A stretch of DNA of 40,959 nucleotides from Sphingobacteriia bacterium (GCA_009930115.1 RZYY01000012.1:1-40959); one strand, 5' to 3'; positions 4,765 to 18,582 are shown, counted from the stretch's first letter. The notes: generated from the letters alone by a model not told the origin. Translations and numbers: made by a program.

Positions 4765-5415
4765 TTGATAAATCTTAAAAATATAACACCTGAACAACGT
4801 AAACTGCTGGAAGAAGGAAAAATGTTACCAATTATGGAAGCATTTTACACTCTTCAGGGTGAAGGTTTTAACATGGGTGAAGCTGCATTTTTTATAAGAG
4901 TCGGGGGTTGCGATGTTGGCTGTCGATGGTGCGATGTGAAAGAATCGTGGAACCCCGATCTGCATCCACTTGTTAAAACCTCCGACGTTATTGAACAAGC
5001 AATGAGTTATCCTTCAAAATCTGTGGTTGTTACAGGAGGTGAACCGCTATTGTACAATCTTGATTTTTTGTGCAGACAGCTGAAAATTAACAGCATGAAA
5101 ACCTATCTTGAAACTTCAGGAGCTCACCCGCTTACTGGTACCTGGGACTGGATTTGTCTTTCACCAAAAATAAATCACCCTCCTGAAGAGAATATCCTGA
5201 CTATTGCCAATGAACTGAAAGTTATTATTTTCAATGAAAGCGATATAGCCTGGGCTGAAAAATATGCCAGTTTAGTTTCACCATCCTGCAAACTTTATCT
5301 GCAACCGGAATGGAGCCGCTCGAAATTCATGACTCCTTTTATTATTCAGTACATCATGCAAAATCCAAAATGGAAAATTTCACTTCAGGCACATAAGTTT
5401 ATGAATATCCCATAG
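4765..5415 (+). CDS. queE: 7-carboxy-7-deazaguanine synthase QueE (radical SAM)
   Basis: QueE converts 6-carboxy-tetrahydropterin to 7-carboxy-7-deazaguanine in the preQ0/queuosine pathway, using SAM and a 4Fe-4S cluster. The cluster motif C-x3-C-x2-C is visible as GGCDVGCRWCD near residues 48-58, preceded by AFYTLQGEG; VVVTGGEPLL follows near 88. The 216-residue length suits the Bacteroidota form. The start is uncertain. There is no ATG upstream in frame after the preceding stop; a TTG gives the called 216-residue protein, while an internal ATG at 4822 would remove 19 residues. The segment LLEEGKMLPIMEAF just before the core resembles related proteins, so I kept the longer form. Confidence 0.9.
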   Translation: MINLKNITPEQRKLLEEGKMLPIMEAFYTLQGEGFNMGEAAFFIRVGGCDVGCRWCDVKESWNPDLHPLVKTSDVIEQAMSYPSKSVVVTGGEPLLYNLDFLCRQLKINSMKTYLETSGAHPLTGTWDWICLSPKINHPPEENILTIANELKVIIFNESDIAWAEKYASLVSPSCKLYLQPEWSRSKFMTPFIIQYIMQNPKWKISLQAHKFMNIP

Positions 5416-5473
5416 ATTTGACAAATCATATTTCTTCTTTATTACGTTAGTTTTATTCACACAGATAATCAAT

Positions 5474-7411
5474 ATGAGACTGCATCTGAGGATATTTGCA
5501 CTGTTGCTGTTATTTTTTTTTGCTTACCAAACCCAGGCGCAAAGCCTTTCCACCAAATCAGAACGGGCAAAAAAATTTTTCGGAAATGCCCAGAGAGAAT
5601 TTAACCTGATGAATTATGCTATAGCAAAAAAATACCTCAAGAAAGCGATATCAATTGATGAAAATTTTCTCGAAGCATACATGCTTTTGGGTGATGTTCA
5701 TAAATCACTTATCGAACGAAAAGAAGCAATTGAAGTTTATACAAGAGTTTTGGAAAGAAATACTGAAAAATATCCTGAAGTTTACTATTTTATGGGACTG
5801 ATTTATTTCGAACTTCAACAATACCAATCAGCTGCCAAAAAATTTGAATACTTTTTAAAAACAAATACAAACCATTCAGACCGGCTGACGGATGCAGCTT
5901 ATTTGCTGGAATGCAGCAAATTTGCTCAAAAAGCTGTTGAAAACCCTGTCCCATTTGAACCGGTTAATGTTGGAAATAATATCAATACCACTGGGAACGA
6001 ATATATCAATTCAATAACAAGCGACGAATTACAGATGTATTTTACCGGGAATAACACGATCCATGGTCAGAAAGCAAATAACGACCGGTTTTATATTGCC
6101 GAACGAAAAACCATCTCAGAAAACTGGAATCCATCTCAGCTTGCACCAAATCCTCTCAACACAGTTGAAAATCAGGGAGCTATGAGCATTACCCCTGACG
6201 GACGGTTTCTGCTGCTAACAGGTTGTCATTGGATAAACGGATATGGCAGTTGTGACCTGTATGCCACAGAAATTTTAGAAGGAAAACCAGGTGAACTAAA
6301 GAATCTGGGAGTACCTCCAAACAGTTCACAGTGGGATTCGCAACCCTCTCTTGCTCCGGATGGCAGAACACTTTTCTTTACAAGCAATCGTGCTGGTGGA
6401 TTTGGAAAAGCTGACATCTGGAAAAGCCGGCTGATGGATGACGGAACCTGGTCAGTACCTGAAAATCTCGGTAATAAAATCAATACATCAGGAGACGAAA
6501 TTGCACCTTTCATTCATGCCGATGGTAAGACACTTTACTTTTCATCCGACCGGCACACAGGTATGGGAGGACATGATCTTTATGTTTCACGACTGGATGA
6601 AAAAGGCGAATGGCAATCACCTGAAAACCTGGGCTATCCAATCAATACACCTGATGATCAAATTAATATCGTGGTAAATACTACCGGTAACAAAGGCTAC
6701 ATTTCCGCAAACCTGCCTGAAGGTCAGGGTGGTTTTGACATTTATAGTTTTCAGCTTCATGATGAAATTCGCCCTCAACCAGTAACTTACATAAAAGGTT
6801 TGATCTCTGATTCAAGATCACAATCACCACTCGAAGCCACTTTGGTTTTAATAAGTCTCGAATCCGGAAAGGAAATCATCCGATCGTCAACTGATAAAAA
6901 AAACGGTGAATTTCTATTATGTCTTCCTGTCGATAGCGATTATGCACTAAATGTGTCTTGTCCCGGCTATCTTTTTTATTCCCAAAACTTTTCACTTACC
7001 GAAATCAATACCGAAGCAGACCCGTACCAGCTAAATATCAGCCTGAATCCGATAAAAACGGGTGAAGCCACCACCCTGCGCAATGTGTTTTTTAATGTGG
7101 ATAAAGCAGATTTATTACCCGAATCAGTCGCAGAATTAACTAAACTTGTAGAATTTCTGAAAATAAATGCTTCATTAAAAATAGAAATTGGAGGGCATAC
7201 CGACAACATCGGGGGGGAAACCTATAACCTTCATCTTTCGGAAAAAAGAGCAAAAACAGTGGTTAATTTTCTGGTTAACAATGGCATCGAAAGCCAACGG
7301 TTAACCTGGAAAGGATATGGGTATTCACGCCCTGTTTCTGAAAATACGACAGAACAGGGAAGGGCCAGCAACCGACGAACTGAGGTACTCATCCTGGAAA
7401 TAAATCAATAA
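5474..7411 (+). CDS. PorE-like T9SS envelope protein (TPR, beta-propeller, CRD, OmpA domains)
   Basis: The 645-residue protein starts with a signal peptide (MRLHLRIFALLLLFFFAY, cleavage near TQAQ). Tetratricopeptide repeats occupy about residues 30-135. Beta-propeller repeats of the PD40/WD40-like type follow (about 180-430; recurring motifs such as PDGRTLFFTSNR and ADGKTLYFSSDR). A carboxypeptidase-regulatory-like domain covers about 440-530, and a C-terminal OmpA domain about 535-645, with GHTDNIGG and SNRRTEV as peptidoglycan-binding signatures. This domain order is that of PorE, a type IX secretion component thought to tie the machinery to peptidoglycan. Paralogues with this architecture exist in many Bacteroidota, so the symbol is withheld. 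Its stop lies 9 bases from the convergent cinA stop. Confidence 0.85.
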   Translation: MRLHLRIFALLLLFFFAYQTQAQSLSTKSERAKKFFGNAQREFNLMNYAIAKKYLKKAISIDENFLEAYMLLGDVHKSLIERKEAIEVYTRVLERNTEKYPEVYYFMGLIYFELQQYQSAAKKFEYFLKTNTNHSDRLTDAAYLLECSKFAQKAVENPVPFEPVNVGNNINTTGNEYINSITSDELQMYFTGNNTIHGQKANNDRFYIAERKTISENWNPSQLAPNPLNTVENQGAMSITPDGRFLLLTGCHWINGYGSCDLYATEILEGKPGELKNLGVPPNSSQWDSQPSLAPDGRTLFFTSNRAGGFGKADIWKSRLMDDGTWSVPENLGNKINTSGDEIAPFIHADGKTLYFSSDRHTGMGGHDLYVSRLDEKGEWQSPENLGYPINTPDDQINIVVNTTGNKGYISANLPEGQGGFDIYSFQLHDEIRPQPVTYIKGLISDSRSQSPLEATLVLISLESGKEIIRSSTDKKNGEFLLCLPVDSDYALNVSCPGYLFYSQNFSLTEINTEADPYQLNISLNPIKTGEATTLRNVFFNVDKADLLPESVAELTKLVEFLKINASLKIEIGGHTDNIGGETYNLHLSEKRAKTVVNFLVNNGIESQRLTWKGYGYSRPVSENTTEQGRASNRRTEVLILEINQ

Positions 7412-7420
7412 AAAAAGGTG

Positions 7421-8665
7421 TTAAGCCGAAGCATTTAATTCAATTCTGAGCATATTTAATGCTGCAAGAGCAGCTTTTCTGATATTTCTGCCTCTGTGTT
7501 CCCCAAACAAAAAATTTTTAGCAATCGTTTTATCTCCACAAGCCAGTGCTATCCATGTTGTTCCCACAGGTTTATCATTCGATCCTCCATCAGGTCCGGC
7601 TATACCGGAGACAGCAATACCGTAATCAGTTTTTAAATTGCTTCTTACACCTTGTGCCATTTGCCTGACAACATCTTCGCTCACAGCACCATATTTTTCA
7701 AGAATGGTTGCATCCACACCCAAGAGTTCAGTTTTTACCTGATTTGAATAAGCTATGACCGAACCTGTGAAATAGGACGAACTACCTGGAATACTTGTTA
7801 TCAGGTGAGCTATGTAACCTCCTGTGCAGCTTTCGGCTGTTGCTAACGATTTCTTTTTCAATTTCAGCAAATTGCCAACTACTTCTTCCATTGTTTCTGT
7901 ATTGTACCCAAAAATCACATCAGAAATTAAAGGCTTAAGCTCTTTTTCCAGAACTTCCAATTGGCGTTCAAGAGCTGACTTATTGTCGCCCACGGCTGTA
8001 AGTCGCAACCGCACTATTCCGGGCTGGGGAAGATATGCCAGTTTCACATTTGCTGGTAAATTATTTTCCCATTCTTCGATTGTTTTTGCCAGGAAAGATT
8101 CACCAACTCCCTGTGTTAAAATCGTATGATGGACGATAAAAGAAGCTTCAGTGTATTTTGCAAGCCGGGGCATGACCTGATGGGTAAACATGGTTTTCAT
8201 TTCGAAAGGTACACCCGGCATTGATATAAAAAATTTACCGTCTTTTTCAAACCACATCCCCGGTGCTGTTCCTTCAGGATTGGGCAAAGGAATGCATGCA
8301 GCAGGAACCTCGGCCTGACGTCGGTTTAATTCAGTTACCGGAATGCCTCTGCTATGGAAAAGCCGCCTGACATTTTCAAATGCTTCCTGATTAAAAATCA
8401 GGTATGTATTAAAAAATTCACACAGGACCATCTTGGTCACATCATCCCTGGTTGGGCCTAACCCTCCGGTAATCAATATAATATCAGCCCTTTGCGAGGC
8501 CTGCTCTAGCGTGGACAGAATTTGTTCACGATCATCTGAAATACTGGTAATCTGATTTACCGTGATACCGGACAAACTAAGCTGTTCGCCCAACCATGCC
8601 GAGTTGGTGTCAATCACCTGTCCGATAAGTAATTCATCGCCAATAGTAATAATCTCTGCGTTCAT
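7421..8665 (-). CDS. cinA: CinA family protein (nicotinamide-nucleotide amidohydrolase / competence-damage inducible)
   Basis: The 414-residue product has both CinA halves. The N-terminal molybdopterin-binding-like (COG1058) domain shows IITIGDELLIGQVIDTNS and ITGGLGPTRDD; the C-terminal PncC-type NMN amidase domain (about 255-410) shows ATAESCTGGYIAHLIT, GAVSEDVVRQMA and VSGIAGPDGGS. Proteins of this type deamidate nicotinamide mononucleotide in NAD salvage and may hydrolyse ADP-ribose. Length is standard for the fused form. A TACTTTTG promoter box lies about 45 bases upstream. The gene is divergent from the nucleoside phosphorylase and convergent with the PorE-like gene. Confidence 0.95.
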   Translation of the reverse strand: MNAEIITIGDELLIGQVIDTNSAWLGEQLSLSGITVNQITSISDDREQILSTLEQASQRADIILITGGLGPTRDDVTKMVLCEFFNTYLIFNQEAFENVRRLFHSRGIPVTELNRRQAEVPAACIPLPNPEGTAPGMWFEKDGKFFISMPGVPFEMKTMFTHQVMPRLAKYTEASFIVHHTILTQGVGESFLAKTIEEWENNLPANVKLAYLPQPGIVRLRLTAVGDNKSALERQLEVLEKELKPLISDVIFGYNTETMEEVVGNLLKLKKKSLATAESCTGGYIAHLITSIPGSSSYFTGSVIAYSNQVKTELLGVDATILEKYGAVSEDVVRQMAQGVRSNLKTDYGIAVSGIAGPDGGSNDKPVGTTWIALACGDKTIAKNFLFGEHRGRNIRKAALAALNMLRIELNASA

Positions 8666-8688
8666 TCCAATAATTTTTGGTAAAATGA

Positions 8689-8696
8689 TACCTTTG
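8689..8696 (+). promoter_or_regulatory. -7 promoter box for the nucleoside phosphorylase
   Basis: TACCTTTG, followed by CA, fits the Bacteroidota consensus TAnnTTTG and lies 38 bases upstream of the ATG. No clear -33 element was found. Confidence 0.5.
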
Positions 8697-8709
8697 CAAT
8701 TTTTTCGGC

Positions 8710-8717
8710 AAAAGTAG
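8710..8717 (-). promoter_or_regulatory. -7 promoter box for cinA
   Basis: The minus strand reads TACTTTTG, matching TAnnTTTG, about 45 bases upstream of the cinA start. It faces the plus-strand box at 8689-8696 with only 13 bases between them, so the two predicted transcription starts nearly coincide. Confidence 0.5.
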
Positions 8718-8734
8718 AATTTTTCAATAGTGGT

Positions 8735-9607
8735 ATGGAAAGAATAAAAGAGTCGGAGTTAATTATCAATGCTGACGGGAGCATTTACCATCTGAGCCTG
8801 AAACCTGGTTATCTGGCTGAAAATGTAATTCTTGTCGGTGATCCCGGACGTGTACCAAAAATTTCCCGTCATTTCAAAAAAATAGAGCACAAGAGTCAAA
8901 ACCGTGAAATAATTGTTCATACCGGAATTTATAATAATCTAAGATTGTCTGTCCTTTCAACTGGTATGGGTACTGACAATATCGATATAGTCATGAACGA
9001 ACTCGATGCCCTTGTTAACATTGATTTTGACAAACGTCAGGTTAAGGAAAACCTAACGCGGTTGAATATTGTCCGGTTGGGTACCTCAGGTTCCATACAG
9101 CCGGAAGTTCCGATAAATACCATTGCTGTTTCAACCCATGGAATTGGTATGGATGGGCTGTTAAAATACTATTCAAGTGAATCTGTAATTGAAAAGGAAT
9201 TAACCAGTGCATTCATAAGTCAAACCCATTGGCACAGCTCTTTGCCATATCCATATATTGTATCCTGCTCCGAAGTTCTGCTGAAAAAACTCGGCCATGA
9301 CCTTCAACAGGGAATTACGGCTACTGCACCGGGTTTTTATGGCCCACAGGGCAGAGTTATCCGCCTTCCACTCAATCATCCCGACCTGATGGAGAGAATT
9401 CAAAAATTCAATTTCAACGGTAAAAAAGTCTTGAATTTTGAAATGGAAACTTCAGCTTTATTCGGACTGGGGAAATTACTCGGTCACAACACGTTAACCA
9501 TTTGTGCAGTAATTGCCAACCGCGCTACCGGCGAATATACCGGTAACTACCAGCCTTTGATCGAAAATATGATTGAACTTGTTTTGGAAAGAATTACCAA
9601 AAGTTAA
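8735..9607 (+). CDS. Nucleoside phosphorylase, uridine phosphorylase-like
   Basis: This 290-residue NP-I family enzyme would cleave a nucleoside with phosphate to a free base and (deoxy)ribose 1-phosphate in the cytosol. Signatures are the phosphate-binding VGDPGRVPKIS (near residues 35-45), STGMGTDNIDIVMNEL, VRLGTSGSIQ and the ribose-binding NFEMETSALFGLG. The layout most resembles uridine phosphorylases of Bacteroidota, but purine specificity cannot be excluded by eye. Its stop lies 2 bases from the convergent glycosyltransferase stop. It sits near the extracellular nuclease locus, where a nucleoside-salvage enzyme would be useful. Confidence 0.88.
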   Translation: MERIKESELIINADGSIYHLSLKPGYLAENVILVGDPGRVPKISRHFKKIEHKSQNREIIVHTGIYNNLRLSVLSTGMGTDNIDIVMNELDALVNIDFDKRQVKENLTRLNIVRLGTSGSIQPEVPINTIAVSTHGIGMDGLLKYYSSESVIEKELTSAFISQTHWHSSLPYPYIVSCSEVLLKKLGHDLQQGITATAPGFYGPQGRVIRLPLNHPDLMERIQKFNFNGKKVLNFEMETSALFGLGKLLGHNTLTICAVIANRATGEYTGNYQPLIENMIELVLERITKS

Positions 9608-9609
9608 AC

Positions 9610-10338
9610 TCAGGAAGGTAACGGCAGAATTTTTTTGAACCTCAATTTGATTACTCCCAATACTGCTTCCTTGAAAATCCCGGAACTCATTTTTGAGGTT
9701 CCTTCCCGGCGATCAGTAAAAACGATGGGAACCTCAACAACATTAAATCCAAGCCTTACCGCTGTAATTTTCATTTCAATCTGAAAAGCATAGCCAATAA
9801 ATTTTATTCTGTCGAACCAGATTGTTTCAAGCACTTGTCGTCGGTAACACACAAAACCTGCAGTTGAATCGGCAATCTTAATTCCTGTCACGATTCTGAC
9901 ATATTTCGAAGCATAATAGGACATCATAACCCGCCCCATCGGCCAATTCACAACCCGGATGACACCTCCGACATACCTTGAACCTATTGCTACATCCGCA
10001 CCATTGTGACAAGCTAAGTACAATTTTTGCAAATCGTCGGGGTTGTGAGAAAAATCGGCATCCATCTCAAAAATAAACTCATAATCACGTGCCAGCGCCC
10101 ATCTGAATCCATGAATATAGGCAGTGCCTAATCCCAGTTTCCCTTCTCGCTCTTCGATGAACAACCTGTCCGGAAACTCCTGCATCAGGTGTTTTACAAT
10201 AGCAGCTGTACCATCAGGAGAATGATCTTCAATAATCAGCACATGAAACTCGCCATCAAGGGCAAAAATATAGCGCAGAATTTTTTCGATATTCTCTTTC
10301 TCATTGTAGGTTGGTATGATTACTAATTTATCTGCCAT
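9610..10338 (-). CDS. Polyprenol-phosphate mannosyltransferase (DPM1-like, GT2)
   Basis: The 242-residue protein is a family 2 glycosyltransferase of the dolichol/polyprenol-phosphate mannose synthase type, moving a sugar from a nucleotide donor to a membrane polyprenol phosphate. Seen in sequence: the N-terminal VIIPTYNEKENIEKIL, LIIEDHSPDGTA, the metal-binding EMDADFSHNP (DxD), GSRYVGG, and DRREGTSKMS near the C-terminus. No membrane anchor domain is fused, unlike some longer homologues. It follows the endonuclease I gene by 68 bases on the same strand and could be co-transcribed, although the functions do not obviously match. The sugar transferred cannot be read from the sequence. Confidence 0.88.
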   Translation of the reverse strand: MADKLVIIPTYNEKENIEKILRYIFALDGEFHVLIIEDHSPDGTAAIVKHLMQEFPDRLFIEEREGKLGLGTAYIHGFRWALARDYEFIFEMDADFSHNPDDLQKLYLACHNGADVAIGSRYVGGVIRVVNWPMGRVMMSYYASKYVRIVTGIKIADSTAGFVCYRRQVLETIWFDRIKFIGYAFQIEMKITAVRLGFNVVEVPIVFTDRREGTSKMSSGIFKEAVLGVIKLRFKKILPLPS

Positions 10339-10406: not shown

Positions 10407-12305
10407 TTATTGTGTTTTTAACATAATCTTTGATGATGCCGATAAAAATTTGTCTGTGTAAAGTAAGATATATAGCCCATCTTTTAGCCCTGCATGGTTA
10501 AGATTTAAACCAGTTGATTTACTTCCGGTTTCAGGAAATATTACTAATTTTTCCTGACCAAGAACATCAAAAAATGTGAGTTTGCTTTTTTGGGAGGCAG
10601 GATCAGATAGATTCACAACAATTTCACCTGAAGTAGGATTTGGATAAACAAAAACAGTTACCTTCTTCCCTTCCTCGGGTATGGTAGTCGGATCAGATAC
10701 ATCACGCAGTGACCTTAGCTCGATTTTCCATTCAGAATAGTTGTAATTGAGCGGCCCTGTAACTGTATAATGTTCATTAAGTACAGGATCGAATTCAAAC
10801 ACATCGTTGTTGTGAACATTTACCTGACCGGTACCATCACTAACCCGCCACATTCCTGAATTGTTCCAGTGCTGTGAGTATGTACAAACAGCTTCAGGAA
10901 TTCGAACCAATACACTTTCCCAGTCTTCACCCATTTCATTGGCAGTTAAAACTGCCGGTTCAGGAACAACTCTTTCGTTTTTTATCAGTTTGTACATCGA
11001 AACATTGGTCATCTCAGTCATTCCATAATACTCTTTTACCATTCCTGTTAGTACAATACTGTCTCCGATTGCAGGAAAAAAGCCGGATTGATAGACAAAC
11101 AATCCTGCTCGTGGTCCATTGCCGGCCTGAATAAAATATCCGTTCGTGTAAAAAGCTGTTACAATCCCAGTTGTTGTTACCATCTGATTTTCAAATGGAG
11201 AATAATCACCAGTTCCCTGAATATTAATTATTGGTGTTATTTCTCCACTCCAATTTGCCGCTACACGGTAGTTGTAAACCGGTGAACAGATATTTTTACC
11301 GGTTTCCTGTATTAATTGTATTGAAAAACAGATGATTGTCTCTTCAGAATAACCAGGAATCTCTCCACGCCATTGCCCATCCGAAAAAGTCATATCGGTG
11401 TAATCCTGAAGATTATTAAATGAATCACCCCAGTACAATCTTACATTTCCGGCTACCGGCATTGGATTGATGCTTCCAGATACTATAACTGACTCGTTTG
11501 CGGCAGGCTGAGCATTGGAAATGGCAATATTACCGATAGCAAAGTCAGGTAAATCAGCATTTCCCCATATTAATTCGATGAAATAAGGATTGTCAACAAA
11601 AGGATTCCTGTTTTTTTGAAACTGATAAATGACATTATTCCTGTTTCGCTCAAACTGGTCAGGATTGTCCATAAGGTTCCATTCCAACAGTGCCGACAAT
11701 TTACCGTGTTCCGGAAGGGGGTATGTATTCACTCTGTTCACTACAGTAAGATTGGATTCGCCGTTAGTCCATTTGTAACGGGCATCCATATAAAAAATAA
11801 TTCTGGCAATGTCACCTTTTACATCATCACGCGGTTCCCAGGATTCTCCCGGTGTGAATTTACATTGGGTTGCTTCGTTGTGATAATACAGACTGTAGTC
11901 AAAATCCATATTACTTCTCGAGCTGTTCACGGATGCATCTGCAGGTTTCAGATTATGTACGTCCGAATGCATGGGAAGGATATCTTCAAACTGCCCGTGG
12001 GATTTAGCCCAAACATGCTCCCTGTTGAGCTTGTTCCCTCCAGAACCATAATCCATTCCATCCTGAGAACGTCCTGTGTAAACAAGGATAACATTTCCGG
12101 GTATTTCAGGATCGGCATCGGAATAGTAAAGGACATATTTGGAAAAAAAATAGGAGAGGCTGTGATGATTTCTTATGATCTCATGCAGCTTCATTTTTAA
12201 TGCTTCTCCCTTTAATCCTTCAGTACCATTGTAATAACCTACCGGCTGGGATAACAATGCAAGCGGAAAAACCAAAAACAGAATGAAACAGAATTTTTTT
12301 CTCAT
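10407..12305 (-). CDS. Secreted endonuclease I family nuclease with T9SS sorting domain
   Basis: The 632-residue protein has a signal peptide (MRKKFCFILFLVFPLALLSQ). An endonuclease I domain covers about residues 20-245; its active-site region reads NREHVWAKSHGQ and is followed by HSDVHNLKPADASVNSSRS. A middle segment (about 250-350) looks beta-rich, and an OB-fold-like segment (about 355-525) resembles the DUF5689/YhcR type, with TTGIVTAFYTNGYFIQAG. The C-terminal 80 or so residues are a T9SS type A sorting domain (FVYPNPTSGEIVVNL, then GLKDGLYILLY). The expected role is non-specific cleavage of extracellular DNA or RNA at the cell surface or outside. It is the third minus-strand gene after a TonB receptor and a lipoprotein, 29 bases from the latter. 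Confidence 0.9.
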   Translation of the reverse strand: MRKKFCFILFLVFPLALLSQPVGYYNGTEGLKGEALKMKLHEIIRNHHSLSYFFSKYVLYYSDADPEIPGNVILVYTGRSQDGMDYGSGGNKLNREHVWAKSHGQFEDILPMHSDVHNLKPADASVNSSRSNMDFDYSLYYHNEATQCKFTPGESWEPRDDVKGDIARIIFYMDARYKWTNGESNLTVVNRVNTYPLPEHGKLSALLEWNLMDNPDQFERNRNNVIYQFQKNRNPFVDNPYFIELIWGNADLPDFAIGNIAISNAQPAANESVIVSGSINPMPVAGNVRLYWGDSFNNLQDYTDMTFSDGQWRGEIPGYSEETIICFSIQLIQETGKNICSPVYNYRVAANWSGEITPIINIQGTGDYSPFENQMVTTTGIVTAFYTNGYFIQAGNGPRAGLFVYQSGFFPAIGDSIVLTGMVKEYYGMTEMTNVSMYKLIKNERVVPEPAVLTANEMGEDWESVLVRIPEAVCTYSQHWNNSGMWRVSDGTGQVNVHNNDVFEFDPVLNEHYTVTGPLNYNYSEWKIELRSLRDVSDPTTIPEEGKKVTVFVYPNPTSGEIVVNLSDPASQKSKLTFFDVLGQEKLVIFPETGSKSTGLNLNHAGLKDGLYILLYTDKFLSASSKIMLKTQ

Positions 12306-12334
12306 TTACCTGTTTAACGATACAAACCTGTAGA

Positions 12335-14002
12335 TTAATATTTTACTTCGACTTTACTGATTTCCCAGGTGGATGATCCTGCGGTGGTACTGAGGTATTT
12401 GAAAGCAATATAGATTGTTTGATTTTCATACGCAGCAAGACTTACATCACCACTGTTTACGAAAGTCCAGTTGTTGCCCTGGGCTCTTGTGAAACCTGTT
12501 AGTTCGGTCCAAGTTCCGTTTTCTGAAGGATTTCCGCTGCCGGCATAATCATTTGATATTAATACTTTCATATCATCAATGGTGATAATATAATTGATGG
12601 CTTCACGGAAACTCAGTGTAACGCCGGTGAAACCCTCCAGTGAAATAGCAGGAGAGACCAGCCAGTCTTCATTTTCAAAATCCGACCCCTGACTATATCC
12701 AGACATCACGGCACATCCTCCATCAAAGCTACCCCAGCCCCATACCTGATCACCAGTAATACTGAATGCGCTGAATGTTCCGACACTGGATTCAAAATCT
12801 TCGAGAAATACAAAAGTTCCTCCTCCTCCACCACCTTCAAATTCAAAATCAGAATTCTCGCCGCTACTGTCCCTCAATCCGGCAGTACCAAAATAGGTGC
12901 GCAAAGTTCCGTTAACACTCAGCCATTTGCCAAGGTTATCCGGATTATCCATAAGATTTACATCACTACGTAAAGGCGACCCTGCCGGCAGGTTTACAAT
13001 TACACAATTTTGATAATTGTTTTCTTCCGGGTCATCAGCAATCAGCACATTTGTTGCCAGTGTAAAAGGAGGCGCATAATCAATATCATCGTTCGTAGAG
13101 ATAGAAGTTATTCCGGATTTTACTGCTCCAACAATATAACCTTTGACCCAACCAACCTGATAGGGTGTAGCATTTTGATTGGCAATACCAAAGGCAACAT
13201 CCCATGGATCTTCCTGTGTTCCGCTGCCCGAGCCAGATCCACCGCCACCACCATCGCAACGCTCTCCGCTAAGATTAATTTCACCCAAATCCCTTACATA
13301 AAGCTGGATATCGCTGTTAAACTGGCTTGCAATGGCTATGAAAGTTCCGTTACCATCCGGAAGGCTCACATTGGCAAAATTGGCATACCCGCTGGTCCGA
13401 ACAATGACAGTATTATTGTTGCAATCTTTCAGCGTGCGGTTCTGGGTAGTCAGTCCGATGGCATCAGACCAGGTTTTACTGGTGTCGGAAGCTGAGAATT
13501 CGACATCATTCAACTGGATCAGCATTGAATTATAGGCTCCGCCTGATAACTCAGTAATGGTAACTAATTCTGGTTCAACAATAACTCCGGTTTTCAGTTT
13601 TACAATGTTTCGATCAACATCCACTGAATCGAGCTGCATAACGCCACTGTAATCTCCAAGAATTAATCCTTTGAGATACACCCTTACCGAATCACCAACA
13701 TAAAGGCCTCCTGAATTAATCAGCCGAAGATTGATAGCACCGGTAGCATCCTGAATATAGGAATTTTTGTAAATATTACCTGAAGTTTCATCCCCAACAA
13801 TAACACCATAAAACGACATAGCTGTGTCGATTTTATAGTACTGGCCGTTATACATGGTTTTAACCTGTTCGATTGTGATCACCTCTCCGACCGGAATATC
13901 GCCTGATGGCGGCTGATCAAAATCCTGGTCAATACATGAGGTTAAATAAAAAGATAAAGAAATCAAAAGTAAAAGTGAGTGAAAAACAATTTTTTTAAAC
14001 AT
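12335..14002 (-). CDS. DUF5689-type surface lipoprotein with choice-of-anchor-like C-terminal domain
   Basis: With the start at the MFKKIVF methionine the protein has 555 residues and an N-terminal lipoprotein signal: basic start, hydrophobic core and lipobox L-T-S-C with Cys at 23. Acidic residues follow (IDQDFDQ), as is common for lipoproteins sent to the Bacteroidota cell surface. A DUF5689/OB-like domain occupies about 35-240 (ITIEQVKTMYNGQ; SYIQDATGAINLRL). A Gly/Ser linker follows, then a second OB-like segment (about 265-390; EDPWDVAFGIANQN, VGWVKGYIVG) and a C-terminal beta-sandwich (about 400-555; FLEDFESSVGTF, NEDWLVSPAISL) of choice-of-anchor J type. An upstream in-frame ATG at 14041 would bury the signal sequence. 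It lies between the TonB receptor and the nuclease; a nucleic-acid-binding surface role is inferred from the OB-like folds. Confidence 0.82.
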   Translation of the reverse strand: MFKKIVFHSLLLLISLSFYLTSCIDQDFDQPPSGDIPVGEVITIEQVKTMYNGQYYKIDTAMSFYGVIVGDETSGNIYKNSYIQDATGAINLRLINSGGLYVGDSVRVYLKGLILGDYSGVMQLDSVDVDRNIVKLKTGVIVEPELVTITELSGGAYNSMLIQLNDVEFSASDTSKTWSDAIGLTTQNRTLKDCNNNTVIVRTSGYANFANVSLPDGNGTFIAIASQFNSDIQLYVRDLGEINLSGERCDGGGGGSGSGSGTQEDPWDVAFGIANQNATPYQVGWVKGYIVGAVKSGITSISTNDDIDYAPPFTLATNVLIADDPEENNYQNCVIVNLPAGSPLRSDVNLMDNPDNLGKWLSVNGTLRTYFGTAGLRDSSGENSDFEFEGGGGGGTFVFLEDFESSVGTFSAFSITGDQVWGWGSFDGGCAVMSGYSQGSDFENEDWLVSPAISLEGFTGVTLSFREAINYIITIDDMKVLISNDYAGSGNPSENGTWTELTGFTRAQGNNWTFVNSGDVSLAAYENQTIYIAFKYLSTTAGSSTWEISKVEVKY

Positions 14003-14043
14003 AACTGTGAAGATTATTGAATGTTGTAACAAATTTTTCAACG

Positions 14044-16557
14044 TTAAAACCTAAAACTAATATTGGCAAAATATTGAATACCATAAAGATAAAAATATTT
14101 TGGAGGAAATTTTTCCATGTCGTTCGGATCATAGCGGAATTGCTCGAATCCGCCAAAAGCGAAGTCAGTTTCGTTGAGCAGATTATTGATGCTAAGATTG
14201 AGTGCGATGTAATATTTCCCGATTCTCCATGATTTTCCTCCAAAAAGATCGACTGTGTATGCCGACGCCAATTTTTCCTGAGCAAGCAGGTCAAGGTAAC
14301 GAATATCGTCCGAACTGTATAAGCCGGCTCCACCAGCAGATCTTCTGTCAGGATTGGGCTCGAGATATATGTCATCGAAAAAGTTCACATTTACACCCAG
14401 CCACCAATACTTTGGAGAATTGTATTTTATACCTCCCGAAAGTGCCGTCTGGGGATTTCCTCCCACGTAGTAATTCTTTAAGTAAACTTTTCTGTCCACA
14501 GCAAGGATTTCGGAATTATTATCCTGTGAGATGGTTGCCAGCGGACGAGAATTGTAAATCATTTGACCAAGACCTGCAACTGCCGAAAGATTGATGGTTG
14601 AAGTAAGTTTATAGTCAACACCAAATTCGGCACCCATACTGCGTGTATCTACTCCTGTCATTTGATAGTTAACGAAACTGCGAAGGGTTTCATGGTAAAA
14701 ACTTCTGGAATAAACCTGATCATTAAATTCTGTGTAGTATAGTGTTGCTCTGGCCTGTATGGTTGGCGCCCTAAGTACGTAACTGATGTCACCCGAAAGT
14801 ATTTTCTCATTCTCGAGCCCACTGACCACAAAATCCCTTGTTCTTGGTGAAATGTAGGAATCTCTGAAATAAGGAGCTCTGGTCATATACAATGCATTTA
14901 CGAGTACATAATGACGACCAGTTATCTTGTACGTCAAACCACCTTTTATCCCATAATTGGTAAAATTCTGCTTTTCGGAATCACCAAGAGAAGCATCAGG
15001 AAATTTTCCGTTTTGCATGTTTCCTGTTCTCCAAAACTGCGTCATTGAAGCATTAGCAGCTATAAAATAGTCAACTTTTGGATAGGTAAAATCAGCCTGA
15101 ACGAAAAGATCATACTTATGCACGTTGGCATCATAATCATATCCAAAAACATCACCTTTATAAACCGGGCGATTTGGTGTACGAATGTCATTTTGGGCAA
15201 GATCAGGATCGAAAAAATCCTGTTCAGCAAATTTGTCCAGGTCAACGTAAAAATCACCGCCGAGAAGGTCTTCCACCACCTTGTAGGTTCGACCTTTATA
15301 CCACGAAAGGTTGATCCCGGAATTAATGGTCAGATTGGGGTTAATTTCTTTGGTAAGTACTGAATTAAACTGAAATTGACTATGGTCATTTCTCCGGTCT
15401 TCGATGATGTATTTTGAAAAATTACCTGTAACGCTATTCCCTTCAATACCATAAGCATTATTCACGGTGTAAAGGTTTTTTCTGTTGGCGAAATAGAAAA
15501 AATCCCAGTCAATCTGTCTAAAATGCTCATTGTTCAGCCATTGATTGGTAAGATAGCTGAAATAGTCAGGATCATTCTTCCAATAGCTGGGCAGGTTGCG
15601 GTAATAATCCGGCCGGGGGTCGGCTGCATCATACCATTCAAGGGCTGTAGAACCATATCTTCCAAAAAAGTAAGCAAGAGAGGAGGTAATTTTTGTTGTT
15701 TTGTCCGGTTCATAATAATGTGTAAAAAAAATCTTAGGCTGATTATATGAACCAACTCTTGAATTTCGCTTTTCGCCCTGCTGATATCCCCAGTTTGGAT
15801 TATAATAATTTGTTCCGGCAAGGTCGTAGGCTTCCTGGGTAGAAACACCTGCTCTTCCTGCCTTTGAAGGTGCAGCAAAAGCAATAAGACCGAGACTGTG
15901 TTTGTTATTTATTTTTTTTTCGACTGATAAAAAATAGCTCCAGGCATCGTAAAAAGTACCTTCTACATAACCTTCCTCGGCCCATCGGCGGGAACCAGAA
16001 ACGGCAACTGCCCATCCGTTATCCATCAGACCGGTGCTGTGTGTTGCCATTAAGCGGTTTCTGTAGGCACGATTGGTGGATGAATAGGTAAGACGGGTTC
16101 CCGGACGCAGTTTGGATGCCCGTGCTTCGATATTGGTAGCACCGCTTACACCTCCAAAAGTATAAGGTGAGGCAGAGATTCCAAAATCAATTTCCTGTCC
16201 CCGGGTCACATCGTTTAATCCACCCCATGCTGACCAGTAAGCCCGGCCTGTTTCCATATCATTTAAAGGAACACCACCTATTAAAACACTGGTGTTTTCT
16301 GAATCATAACCCCGAACTCTGAAACGTGTCTGACCAAATGTATATCCGGCAGTCGACAGGTAAATGTCTCTTGAAGATTGAAGCAATCCGGAAACATTCT
16401 GGGTTTGTTCGTCTGTTTCAAGATCAAGATCAGCAGCAGTAATAGTAATGATCGGATGCTGAAGAGATTCATCACGAATCAGAGAAGTCGTGTCCACCTG
16501 GGCAAAAACCTGCACAAAAATCAACAATGTGTAAAACGTAATAATGAGTTTTTTCAT
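14044..16557 (-). CDS. TonB-dependent outer membrane receptor
   Basis: The 837-residue product begins with a signal peptide (MKKLIITFYTLLIFVQVFAQ). A plug domain follows (about 35-170; VSGLLQSSRDIYLSTAG, FRVRGYDSENTSVLIGGVPL, YTFGGVSGATNIEARAS), then a long beta-barrel ending in an aromatic C-terminus (YFANISFRF), as BAM substrates do. It lacks the N-terminal carboxypeptidase-like extension of typical SusC proteins. An in-frame ATG at 16614 is rejected because it overlaps the -7 promoter box at 16612-16619. The next genes, 41 bases or less apart, encode a surface lipoprotein and a secreted nuclease, so the likely substrates are nucleic-acid fragments; that is inference from context. Energy would come from TonB-ExbBD elsewhere. 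Confidence 0.92.
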   Translation of the reverse strand: MKKLIITFYTLLIFVQVFAQVDTTSLIRDESLQHPIITITAADLDLETDEQTQNVSGLLQSSRDIYLSTAGYTFGQTRFRVRGYDSENTSVLIGGVPLNDMETGRAYWSAWGGLNDVTRGQEIDFGISASPYTFGGVSGATNIEARASKLRPGTRLTYSSTNRAYRNRLMATHSTGLMDNGWAVAVSGSRRWAEEGYVEGTFYDAWSYFLSVEKKINNKHSLGLIAFAAPSKAGRAGVSTQEAYDLAGTNYYNPNWGYQQGEKRNSRVGSYNQPKIFFTHYYEPDKTTKITSSLAYFFGRYGSTALEWYDAADPRPDYYRNLPSYWKNDPDYFSYLTNQWLNNEHFRQIDWDFFYFANRKNLYTVNNAYGIEGNSVTGNFSKYIIEDRRNDHSQFQFNSVLTKEINPNLTINSGINLSWYKGRTYKVVEDLLGGDFYVDLDKFAEQDFFDPDLAQNDIRTPNRPVYKGDVFGYDYDANVHKYDLFVQADFTYPKVDYFIAANASMTQFWRTGNMQNGKFPDASLGDSEKQNFTNYGIKGGLTYKITGRHYVLVNALYMTRAPYFRDSYISPRTRDFVVSGLENEKILSGDISYVLRAPTIQARATLYYTEFNDQVYSRSFYHETLRSFVNYQMTGVDTRSMGAEFGVDYKLTSTINLSAVAGLGQMIYNSRPLATISQDNNSEILAVDRKVYLKNYYVGGNPQTALSGGIKYNSPKYWWLGVNVNFFDDIYLEPNPDRRSAGGAGLYSSDDIRYLDLLAQEKLASAYTVDLFGGKSWRIGKYYIALNLSINNLLNETDFAFGGFEQFRYDPNDMEKFPPKYFYLYGIQYFANISFRF

Positions 16558-16611
16558 CAGAAATATATTGATTACTTTAATGTTGACAAAACCATCTTTG
16601 ATAAAAGTTTG

Positions 16612-16619
16612 CAAATTTA
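16612..16619 (-). promoter_or_regulatory. -7 promoter box for the TonB receptor operon
   Basis: The minus strand reads TAAATTTG, followed by C, matching TAnnTTTG 54 bases upstream of the chosen start. The -33 element is not obvious. Confidence 0.5.
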
Positions 16620-16660
16620 GACATAATTTAAAATGCCGGGGTGGTTTTATTGCTTTTGTT

Positions 16661-16668
16661 TACATTTG
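16661..16668 (+). promoter_or_regulatory. -7 promoter box for the secreted EEP nuclease
   Basis: TACATTTG fits TAnnTTTG and lies 28 bases upstream of the ATG. It is divergent from the TonB receptor promoter about 40 bases away, so one regulator could serve both. Confidence 0.5.
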
Positions 16669-16696
16669 TGGCAAAATTTAAAACAGGAAAATATTC

Positions 16697-17743
16697 ATGA
16701 GATTCTTCACTACGATAGCTTTCACCATCTTTGTTTTACTTTCAGGATTGAATTTGCACGCACAAGATGAAATGCGATACCGGATTGGTTGCATTGCATT
16801 TTACAACATCGAAAACCTTTTTGACACCATCAATCAGCCAAAGGTGAATGACACTGAATTTACTCCCGAAGGTCCAAACAACTGGAACAGTTCGAAATAT
16901 TACGAAAAGTTGGCTAATTTATCTGAAGTGATTTCAAAAATAGGAGTTGATCTCACTCCTGATGGCCCTGCTGTTCTTGGCCTGTCAGAAATTGAAAATC
17001 GCTCGGTTTTATCAGACCTGGTGATGCAACCTGAACTCAGGCAACACAATTACCAGATCGTCCATCACGATGGCCCCGACCGCAGAGGAGTGGATTGTGC
17101 TTTATTTTACAATCCGAAATATTTCACCATGACCAATTCTCAATCGCGACGCCTCAGGGTTGAGGGGCGTGATAATTTTTTCACCCGCGACCAGTTGGTG
17201 GTATCGGGAATGTTTGATGGTGAAATGATGCATTTTATTGTTAATCACTGGCCTTCTCGCAGTGGTGGACAAAAACGCAGTGAACCACTGCGCATAGCTG
17301 CTGCCCGGCTTACCCGATCAATCGTGGATTCTCTTCTTAACATTGATCCGAACGCAAAAGTGATTGTAATGGGAGACCTGAATGATGATCCTGTGGACAA
17401 ATCGGTGAAAAAAATCATGAACACTACCGACAATCCTGATAAACTAAAATCTGACATGATGTTTAATCCGATGGAAAGACTCTATCGTCAGGGTATTGGA
17501 AGTCTTGCCTATCGCGATGCATGGAATCTTTTTGATCAGCTGCTCCTTACACAGGCACTAACCGGAAATGATAAGAGCACGTATAAATTTTACCGTGCAG
17601 GAGTTTTCAACAAACCATGGTTACTACAAAAAGAAGGAGCTTTTAAAGGATATCCCTGGCGATCGTTTGCCGGAGGAAATTATCTTGGTGGTTACAGCGA
17701 CCATCTCCCTGTTTATCTTTTCATTATCAAAGAGGAAAGATAA
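16697..17743 (+). CDS. Secreted endonuclease/exonuclease/phosphatase (EEP) family protein
   Basis: This 348-residue protein has a signal peptide (about 1-22, ending near LHAQ) and one EEP domain. The family's catalytic blocks are all visible: FYNIENLFD (Asn), GLSEIENR (Glu), DRRGVDCALFYN, NHWPSRSGG (His), VMGDLNDDP (Asp/Asn) and the terminal SDHLPVYLF (Asp-His). EEP enzymes are metal-dependent phosphodiesterases acting on DNA, RNA or phospho-head groups; the FYNIENLFD and NHWPSR subtype resembles extracellular nucleases. No sorting domain is visible, so it may be periplasmic. It is divergent from the TonB receptor/lipoprotein/endonuclease I genes and probably belongs to the same function. Confidence 0.9.
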   Translation: MRFFTTIAFTIFVLLSGLNLHAQDEMRYRIGCIAFYNIENLFDTINQPKVNDTEFTPEGPNNWNSSKYYEKLANLSEVISKIGVDLTPDGPAVLGLSEIENRSVLSDLVMQPELRQHNYQIVHHDGPDRRGVDCALFYNPKYFTMTNSQSRRLRVEGRDNFFTRDQLVVSGMFDGEMMHFIVNHWPSRSGGQKRSEPLRIAAARLTRSIVDSLLNIDPNAKVIVMGDLNDDPVDKSVKKIMNTTDNPDKLKSDMMFNPMERLYRQGIGSLAYRDAWNLFDQLLLTQALTGNDKSTYKFYRAGVFNKPWLLQKEGAFKGYPWRSFAGGNYLGGYSDHLPVYLFIIKEER

Positions 17744-17802
17744 TCCGGCAAAGTTCAGCAGAGGAGTAAACTGAATTTCCTTATGGAAAAGCAAACACCG
17801 AC

Positions 17803-18582
17803 TCAAATAAACTCTATTCTTACTGTATCATCTACCCTAAGACCAAGCAATCCTGCTGCATTGGCCATGCATACAGCAAGCTGAAGATAACCTGAAGAAC
17901 TAAACAAAGCAACAATCTCTCCTTCAGGAACATCCTTGTAAGATTGACTGATTTTTTTTATACTATACCTGGATGCACCAAAAAGTATTCGGAATGGCCT
18001 TTTCTGACCAATTTTTGCAAACAAATCCCTGCTAATGTTGGTAAAAATATTTTCATACTGGTCAATGTAGGTTACATGCCCTTTAATAAGGTTTTCGGAG
18101 GTAACCGGGCACAAACCAATACGAGAAGTCAGCTCCTTGCGCTCAGGCCCCAGCTGAGCAGGATCATTCCCTTCAACAATAAACTGTGCCACCTTAACAA
18201 AAACATCAAAAGCAGCAAACGTGAAAGTATCAGTATCCTGATAAATATCAATTTCGATAAGTTTTTCAGGCTTGTGATCAAATGCCAGCGCAAAAACACC
18301 ATTATCCGCCCCGATAAAATAACTGCCATCATAAACAGCCAGCACATGTGGCATTTCAATGGTAGCCTCTGAAGTAATATCAACAATATGAATGGTGCCT
18401 TCAGGGAAGGAGGAATAGGAATTCCGAAGGACAAAAGCAGCACTGTTGAGATTGAATGGCGGAATATTATGCGTAAGATCCACTACAATGGCACCGGGTA
18501 TTCGGGAATAAATTTTACCTTTCACAATTCCTGCGTAATGATCTTTTGTTCCCCAGTCCGAAAGTAATGTTATAAGCGCCAT
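17803..18582 (-). CDS. DUF62 / SAM hydroxide adenosyltransferase family protein with altered active site
   Basis: The 259-residue length and pattern (ITLLSDWGTKDHYAGIVKG, VDLTHNIPPFN, YFIGADNGVFALAF, C-terminal SSSGYLQLAV) place it in the DUF62 family. Characterised members split S-adenosylmethionine to adenosine and methionine by hydroxide attack; relatives are the fluorinase and chlorinase. The characterised triad is Asp-Arg-His. Here Asp68 is present, but the Arg position of D-P-G-V-G-x-x-R reads as Ile75, and the TFHGRD block reads TFAAFD, with Ala123 in place of His. The activity is therefore uncertain. It is divergent from phoH and convergent with the EEP gene, with its own TAATTTTG box. 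Confidence 0.85.
   Translation of the reverse strand: MALITLLSDWGTKDHYAGIVKGKIYSRIPGAIVVDLTHNIPPFNLNSAAFVLRNSYSSFPEGTIHIVDITSEATIEMPHVLAVYDGSYFIGADNGVFALAFDHKPEKLIEIDIYQDTDTFTFAAFDVFVKVAQFIVEGNDPAQLGPERKELTSRIGLCPVTSENLIKGHVTYIDQYENIFTNISRDLFAKIGQKRPFRILFGASRYSIKKISQSYKDVPEGEIVALFSSSGYLQLAVCMANAAGLLGLRVDDTVRIEFI

Follow-up and report, generated by a model that had tools for sequence, protein, structure and literature searches.

A candidate outer-membrane DNA-uptake module of Bacteroidota with added secreted nucleases in an uncultured Bacteroidales genus

The closest described counterpart of the locus analysed here is found in Riemerella anatipestifer, a duck-infecting relative. A transposon screen for natural transformation in this species yielded two unfamiliar outer-membrane proteins encoded by adjoining genes, RA0C_RS04915, which has a CarboxypepD_reg domain, and RA0C_RS04920, which has DUF5689 and DUF5017 domains (PMC8459023). 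Markerless deletion of either gene reduced natural transformation below detection, and the authors speculated that RA0C_RS04920 binds DNA and RA0C_RS04915 carries it across the outer membrane (PMC8459023). Homologues of the pair were reported to be widespread in Bacteroidetes, above all in Flavobacteriaceae, with the receptor found only in the latter, and RA0C_RS04910 was mentioned once, as an upstream neighbour with unchanged transcription (PMC8459023). Transformation of Riemerella is also affected by iron and lowered by deletion of tonBA and tonBB, for which indirect effects were favoured (PMC8383284).

We analysed a DNA stretch of 40,959 nucleotides (hereafter, the window) that encodes a TonB-dependent receptor, a DUF5689 lipoprotein and two nucleases. 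The receptor-lipoprotein pair is of an already known kind (PMC8459023). The EEP-family nuclease as a conserved partner of the pair, the occurrence of the complete module in uncultured Bacteroidales and the recruitment of secreted nucleases are not stated in the literature searched, and we regard them as new provisionally, because subscription journals lay largely outside the search. Within the same limits, and with the proviso that prior work may exist, we found no published role for the EEP nuclease and no report of nucleic-acid utilisation loci.

Gene content of the window and its Riemerella counterpart

Domains in the window were assigned by Pfam and NCBIfam profile searches. The four open reading frames proposed in the initial annotation were all present, and the searches bore out both their coordinates and their identities (Table 1). 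Reading leftwards from 16.6 kb, the minus strand carries the receptor, the lipoprotein and then endonuclease I, with gaps of 2 bp and 29 bp between successive genes, and 82 bp separate the receptor from the EEP gene. An ATG at 16557 is likely the true receptor start and yields a signal peptide. The TAnnTTTG elements of the divergent intergenic region are consensus matches only, in a window where a pattern scan of both strands found 1.27 such elements per kb.

Table 1. Features of the module and of a gene to its left (positions in the window)
Feature	Position	Strand	Evidence or remark
Nucleoside phosphorylase	8735-9607		Real gene, left of module
Endonuclease I (EndA fold), OB-type middle region, T9SS type A sorting tail	10407-12305	-	PF04231, PF18962/TIGR04183
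DUF5689 outer-membrane lipoprotein	12335-14041	-	DUF5689, 165 bits; DUF6359, 95 bits; DUF5017/choice-of-anchor J
TonB-dependent receptor	14044-16614	-	TonB plug PF07715, 24.4 bits (cut-off 23.9)
Divergent intergenic region	16612-16668	.	Bacteroidota -7-like TAnnTTTG elements, one per direction (16661, +; 16612, -)
EEP-family nuclease	16697-17743	+	Exo_endo_phos_3 PF19580, 435 bits

The arrangement is far beyond chance, because it recurs across the Bacteroidota phylum. The window genome is a draft of 541 contigs with 8.9% contamination; despite this, finding the same locus in sister species makes an assembly error at this site unlikely. The other species of the genus examined (L175) has the gene order EEP, receptor, lipoprotein, EndA and GT2, and EndA shows 65% identity to the window copy. 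To the left of the module, positions 7421-10338 of the window hold cinA, the nucleoside phosphorylase gene and GT2, whose order beside the module is kept in L175. In other Bacteroidales, GT2 paired with dihydroorotase is often found beside the module.

For comparison with Riemerella, Bacteroidota genomes were searched with the window receptor, followed by the family of one strong match, which led to genome G248, a single contig of 2,164,087 bases. Its locus (L067) comprises, in order, recA, dinB, sdhB, sdhA, sdhC, comEC, two further genes, a divergently oriented EEP gene, the receptor and the DUF5689 lipoprotein. These eleven genes fit RA0C_RS04870 (RecA), RA0C_RS04895 (ComEC), RA0C_RS04915 and RA0C_RS04920 at exactly the published spacing, and the positions of dprA and the DUF1343 gene in G248 agree with the places predicted from the tags. 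Since its gene order matches the published locus tags, we regard G248 as R. anatipestifer ATCC 11845 or a strain nearly identical to it; RA0C_RS04910 would therefore be the divergent EEP nuclease. In this Weeksellaceae-like genus, comEC lies three genes from EEP (L067, 6404-11625), and in another (L070 of G220, 4965-8897) dprA lies two genes from EEP.

The window proteins match their G248 counterparts at 33% over 855 aa for the receptor (449 bits), 32% over 280 aa for the lipoprotein (BLASTP, E 1e-24) and 39% over 390 aa for the EEP nuclease (E 4e-93). A maximum-likelihood tree of 37 proteins places the receptors of the loci, including those of the window and G248, together and separates them from paralogues by a branch with 100/100 support. 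They form groups corresponding to Weeksellaceae-like and Flavobacteriaceae-like families, to Saprospiraceae with Chitinophagaceae, and to Bacteroidales, and thus follow taxonomy as expected for old vertical inheritance. Judged by sequence, the window receptor is an orthologue of RA0C_RS04915, and the window EEP nuclease is an orthologue of the protein encoded at the RA0C_RS04910 position.

In both loci, homologous genes for the receptor and the DUF5689 lipoprotein follow one another in that order, and an EEP gene diverges from the shared intergenic region. In contrast to its Riemerella counterpart, the window receptor has no N-terminal CarboxypepD_reg domain, the window lipoprotein has an extra DUF6359 domain, the operon ends with a T9SS endonuclease I, and comEC and recA are not neighbours.

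Conservation of the module and co-occurrence of the EEP nuclease

We compared 80 Bacteroidota loci that were picked from one genome scan by the receptor alone; these loci are mutually related, and the counts given below are not independent. In 76/79 loci, the first or second gene after the receptor encodes a DUF5689 lipoprotein, in support of the initial reading of the two as a pair. Where the upstream side is present, the EEP gene is the immediate and divergent neighbour in 56 of the 74 loci, in genomes that contain only one to three EEP genes each. The module is present in Bacteroidales, Flavobacteriales, Saprospiraceae and Chitinophagaceae. The four-gene neighbourhood of the initial annotation is therefore conserved in Bacteroidota as regards the EEP nuclease, the receptor and the lipoprotein, but not as regards endonuclease I, which is near the module in 6/80 loci. 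By the same measure, receptors with no endonuclease I nearby are the rule, while the association with the EEP nuclease holds.

The distribution is uneven among close relatives: the receptor is found in 3/3 genomes of the window genus versus 0/9 in four sister genera (G256-G266; several are >93% complete). The genes that recur downstream of the module were considered as transport components and rejected, as they are not TonB/ExbBD. They encode a glycosyltransferase, a dihydroorotase and a MORN protein in Bacteroidales and RapZ-C/NTP-transferase/lysine-decarboxylase-like proteins in Weeksellaceae-like genomes.

The window EEP nuclease is a stand-alone protein of 348 aa with, by eye, an ordinary Sec-type signal sequence and neither a lipobox nor a T9SS tail. 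The motif residues E39, E98, E100, H184, D227, N229, D335 and H336 are at least 96% invariant among 57 aligned copies, and 56 of the 57 have no lipobox. We infer from the invariant fold motifs and the missing lipobox that the protein is a periplasmic, active enzyme. Extracellular nucleases of the ExeM/NucH type have an EEP fold and OB-type domains from the superfamilies seen here, but the window EEP scores 28 bits against this family, far below the 300-bit cut-off.

In the EEP tree, the locus copies form one group, inside which just two unlinked copies are nested (G037 and G134); G037 has the receptor and lipoprotein elsewhere. Co-occurrence was assessed with the window EEP as a query against 57 genomes, 31 with the receptor and 26 without a receptor orthologue. 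Of the 31 receptor-bearing genomes, 30 gave an orthologue-level match, and the result for G107 was ambiguous. In seven of the genomes with a match, all from one Flavobacteriaceae-like genus, the EEP gene is relocated; in six of these it remains on the same contig at a distance of 17-49 kb. The 26 receptor-negative genomes comprise 18 with no EEP match, six with paralogue-level matches only and two with orthologues (G134 and G259). The resulting contrast, approximately 30/31 versus 2/26, corresponds to p ~1e-12 in Fisher's exact test, with the caveat of shared ancestry. Within families f1, f3 and f6, the EEP nuclease and the receptor are jointly absent from genomes whose close relatives have both. 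Taken with the divergent neighbourhood, this co-occurrence upholds the initial grouping of the EEP gene with the receptor and lipoprotein. Retention of the gene with the pair across most of the phylum suggests an overlooked part of DNA import.

Recruited nucleases and a possible nutritional role

The window endonuclease I scores 124 bits against PF04231, and its PF18962/TIGR04183 sorting tail scores above the cut-off, which marks it as a T9SS type A cargo nuclease. Its OB-type middle region matches the N-terminus of the ExeM/NucH profile at 36 bits (cut-off 300). Given that EndA lies near the module in just 6/80 loci outside the window genus, endonuclease I is a lineage-specific addition and not a core component. 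The genome of the window encodes two further endonuclease I genes on contigs C66 and C86 (L001, L002), which, at 275-277 bits, are nearer to the family consensus than the window copy at 127 bits.

Nucleases of other folds occupy comparable positions elsewhere. A DNA/RNA non-specific endonuclease (Endonuclease_NS) with an OB domain, whose fold is unrelated to that of endonuclease I, follows the lipoproteins at the third position in two loci (L104:13689-14939 and L105:13663-14913). In a cluster from the window family (L181, G259:C159, 1-7100), a paralogous, more distant TonB receptor is accompanied by a T9SS lamin-tail protein, by a PLD-type nuclease to which a DUF5689-like domain is fused, and by a divergent EEP gene orthologous to that of the window. 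This repeated recruitment of differently folded nucleases supports nucleic acid as the substrate, as first suggested for the window, and leaves room for a role in feeding. In another locus (L043 of G103, 10978-18501), the EEP-receptor-lipoprotein module directly adjoins a second cluster, which consists of a paralogous TonB receptor with its own lipoprotein and an endonuclease I that has a lipobox.

Feeding was the role favoured in the initial annotation. On this reading, the nucleases degrade extracellular DNA and the pair imports the fragments for phosphorus, nitrogen or nucleosides, Riemerella transformation being a reuse of the importer. The operonic T9SS endonuclease I of the window genus, the EndA genes near the module in 6/80 loci and the three clusters with other nucleases all speak for it, and so does Flavobacterium johnsoniae, which has homologues of the pair yet is not transformable under Riemerella conditions (PMC8459023), a fact that also weighs against the transformation reading. 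However, some 72 of the 80 loci have neither extracellular nuclease beside the module, and SusD or nucleoside-transport genes are absent at the locus. The nucleoside phosphorylase, which had been proposed as a possible user of imported products, has no homologue in any of the 80 related loci and is near the module within the window genus only. The sole genetic evidence on the pair is the loss of transformation: as the window pair is homologous to two genes essential for this process in Riemerella, transformation uptake is the role with experimental support (PMC8459023). We therefore regard nutrition as a rather unlikely primary function, although the two roles are compatible.

The initial comparison with polysaccharide utilisation loci holds for the general plan, which in both cases includes a TonB-dependent receptor, a surface lipoprotein and secreted depolymerases. 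It does not extend to the protein families: Pfam and NCBIfam searches gave no SusC or SusD family match among the window proteins, and nucleases take the place of glycoside hydrolases. The earlier interpretation is, overall, supported in part.

Predicted structures and a proposed route of DNA import

The lipoprotein, which by eye has a lipobox (FYLTSC), consists of DUF5689 (residues 53-254), DUF6359 and a C-terminal jelly roll of the choice-of-anchor J/cleaved-adhesin-like type. Its predicted model has a mean pLDDT of 87 and a pTM of 0.52, so that domain placement is uncertain though the model is locally confident. The modelled C-terminal domain resembles gingipain cleaved-adhesin and CBM/MAM jelly rolls, with Z scores of 15-18 (top match 17.7 over 160 residues, rmsd 2.8). 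In the model, the strand order of the DUF5689 region is compatible with two five-strand OB units. A single weak Foldseek match relates this region to tandem-OB HIN domains (5z7d, prob 0.95, TM 0.16), in a list filled by the jelly-roll domain, and a weak signal of kinship links it to the OB region of endonuclease I (BLASTP E 4e-4, HMM E 0.36). Net charge was considered as a sign of DNA binding and rejected: every lipoprotein domain is net negative, a property that gives no hint of a DNA-binding surface.

The AlphaFold model of the receptor (pTM 0.83) has its best matches among FhuA/PqqU-class TonB-dependent transporters. The solved structures nearest to it are transporters for PQQ, siderophores and metals, although the resemblance is one of fold, with 10-13% sequence identity, and SusC is not among the 50 best matches of the fold search. 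Sequence searches found no relatives with solved structures. To our knowledge, no structure shows a TonB-type barrel passing DNA.

We consider it likely that the locus serves natural transformation in Bacteroidota as a module for DNA uptake at the outer membrane. The DUF5689 lipoprotein would bind extracellular DNA at the surface and hand it to the receptor, which, energised by TonB, would pass it through the outer membrane. The EEP nuclease would then process the incoming DNA in the periplasm, by nicking or trimming it or by generating single strands. The HHH protein and ComEC would next move it to the cytoplasm, and DprA/RecA would integrate it. In the window genus, the added T9SS endonuclease I probably breaks DNA outside the cell or in biofilms into fragments suitable for import, and imported DNA may also feed the cell. 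The window genome encodes ComEC, DprA, DUF1343 and HHH homologues, corresponding to other factors essential in Riemerella; these are necessary for the model and not support for it. Co-occurrence of ComEC and the HHH protein with the receptor was rejected as evidence, since both occur in 57/57 genomes tested, with or without the receptor, and their presence accordingly gives no support for the putative competence of the window organism.

Several observations count against DNA import by this route, chief among them the failure of F. johnsoniae to transform noted above. Two receptor-negative genomes keep the EEP gene, and iron or nutrients may account indirectly for the effect of tonB deletion in Riemerella. 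The window lipoprotein scores below the Riemerella subfamily cut-off, and the window receptor has no CarboxypepD_reg domain.

Some members of EEP families are phosphodiesterases with substrates other than nucleic acids, which counts in favour of another ligand: the receptor would import a metal, cofactor or peptide indirectly needed for competence, and the EEP protein would be a neighbouring phosphodiesterase whose function has no connection with DNA. This is consistent with the nearest solved folds of the receptor and with the influence of iron on Riemerella transformation (PMC8383284), but it is most improbable, given that the loss of transformation in the deletion strains is complete and not partial (PMC8459023) and that nucleases of various folds recur as partners.

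A further-reaching version of the uptake model, which we put forward tentatively as possible rather than probable, is that the divergent EEP nuclease is a third, hitherto unassigned component of a phylum-wide DNA-uptake machine, responsible for periplasmic DNA processing, to which uncultured Bacteroidales added T9SS-secreted nucleases for combined DNA feeding and transformation. The EEP nuclease would then be a candidate for the conversion of double- to single-stranded DNA, to which the Riemerella screen had assigned no protein (PMC8459023), and the comparison with G248 names a concrete nuclease at the RA0C_RS04910 position, testable in a tractable strain. If correct, the model helps to predict which Bacteroidota are able to acquire genes by transformation.

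The subfamily to which the Riemerella lipoprotein belongs also bears on a separate literature. Against NCBIfam NF052645 (M949_1556 family lipoprotein), which has a cut-off of 475 bits, the window lipoprotein reaches only 162 bits, versus 599 bits for the Riemerella copy (L067:14730-16133) and 717 bits for the copy in L057. M949_1556 has been studied for antigenicity and pathogenicity (cited in PMC12566107). The M949_1556 literature and that on the Riemerella lipoprotein may thus concern one transformation gene.
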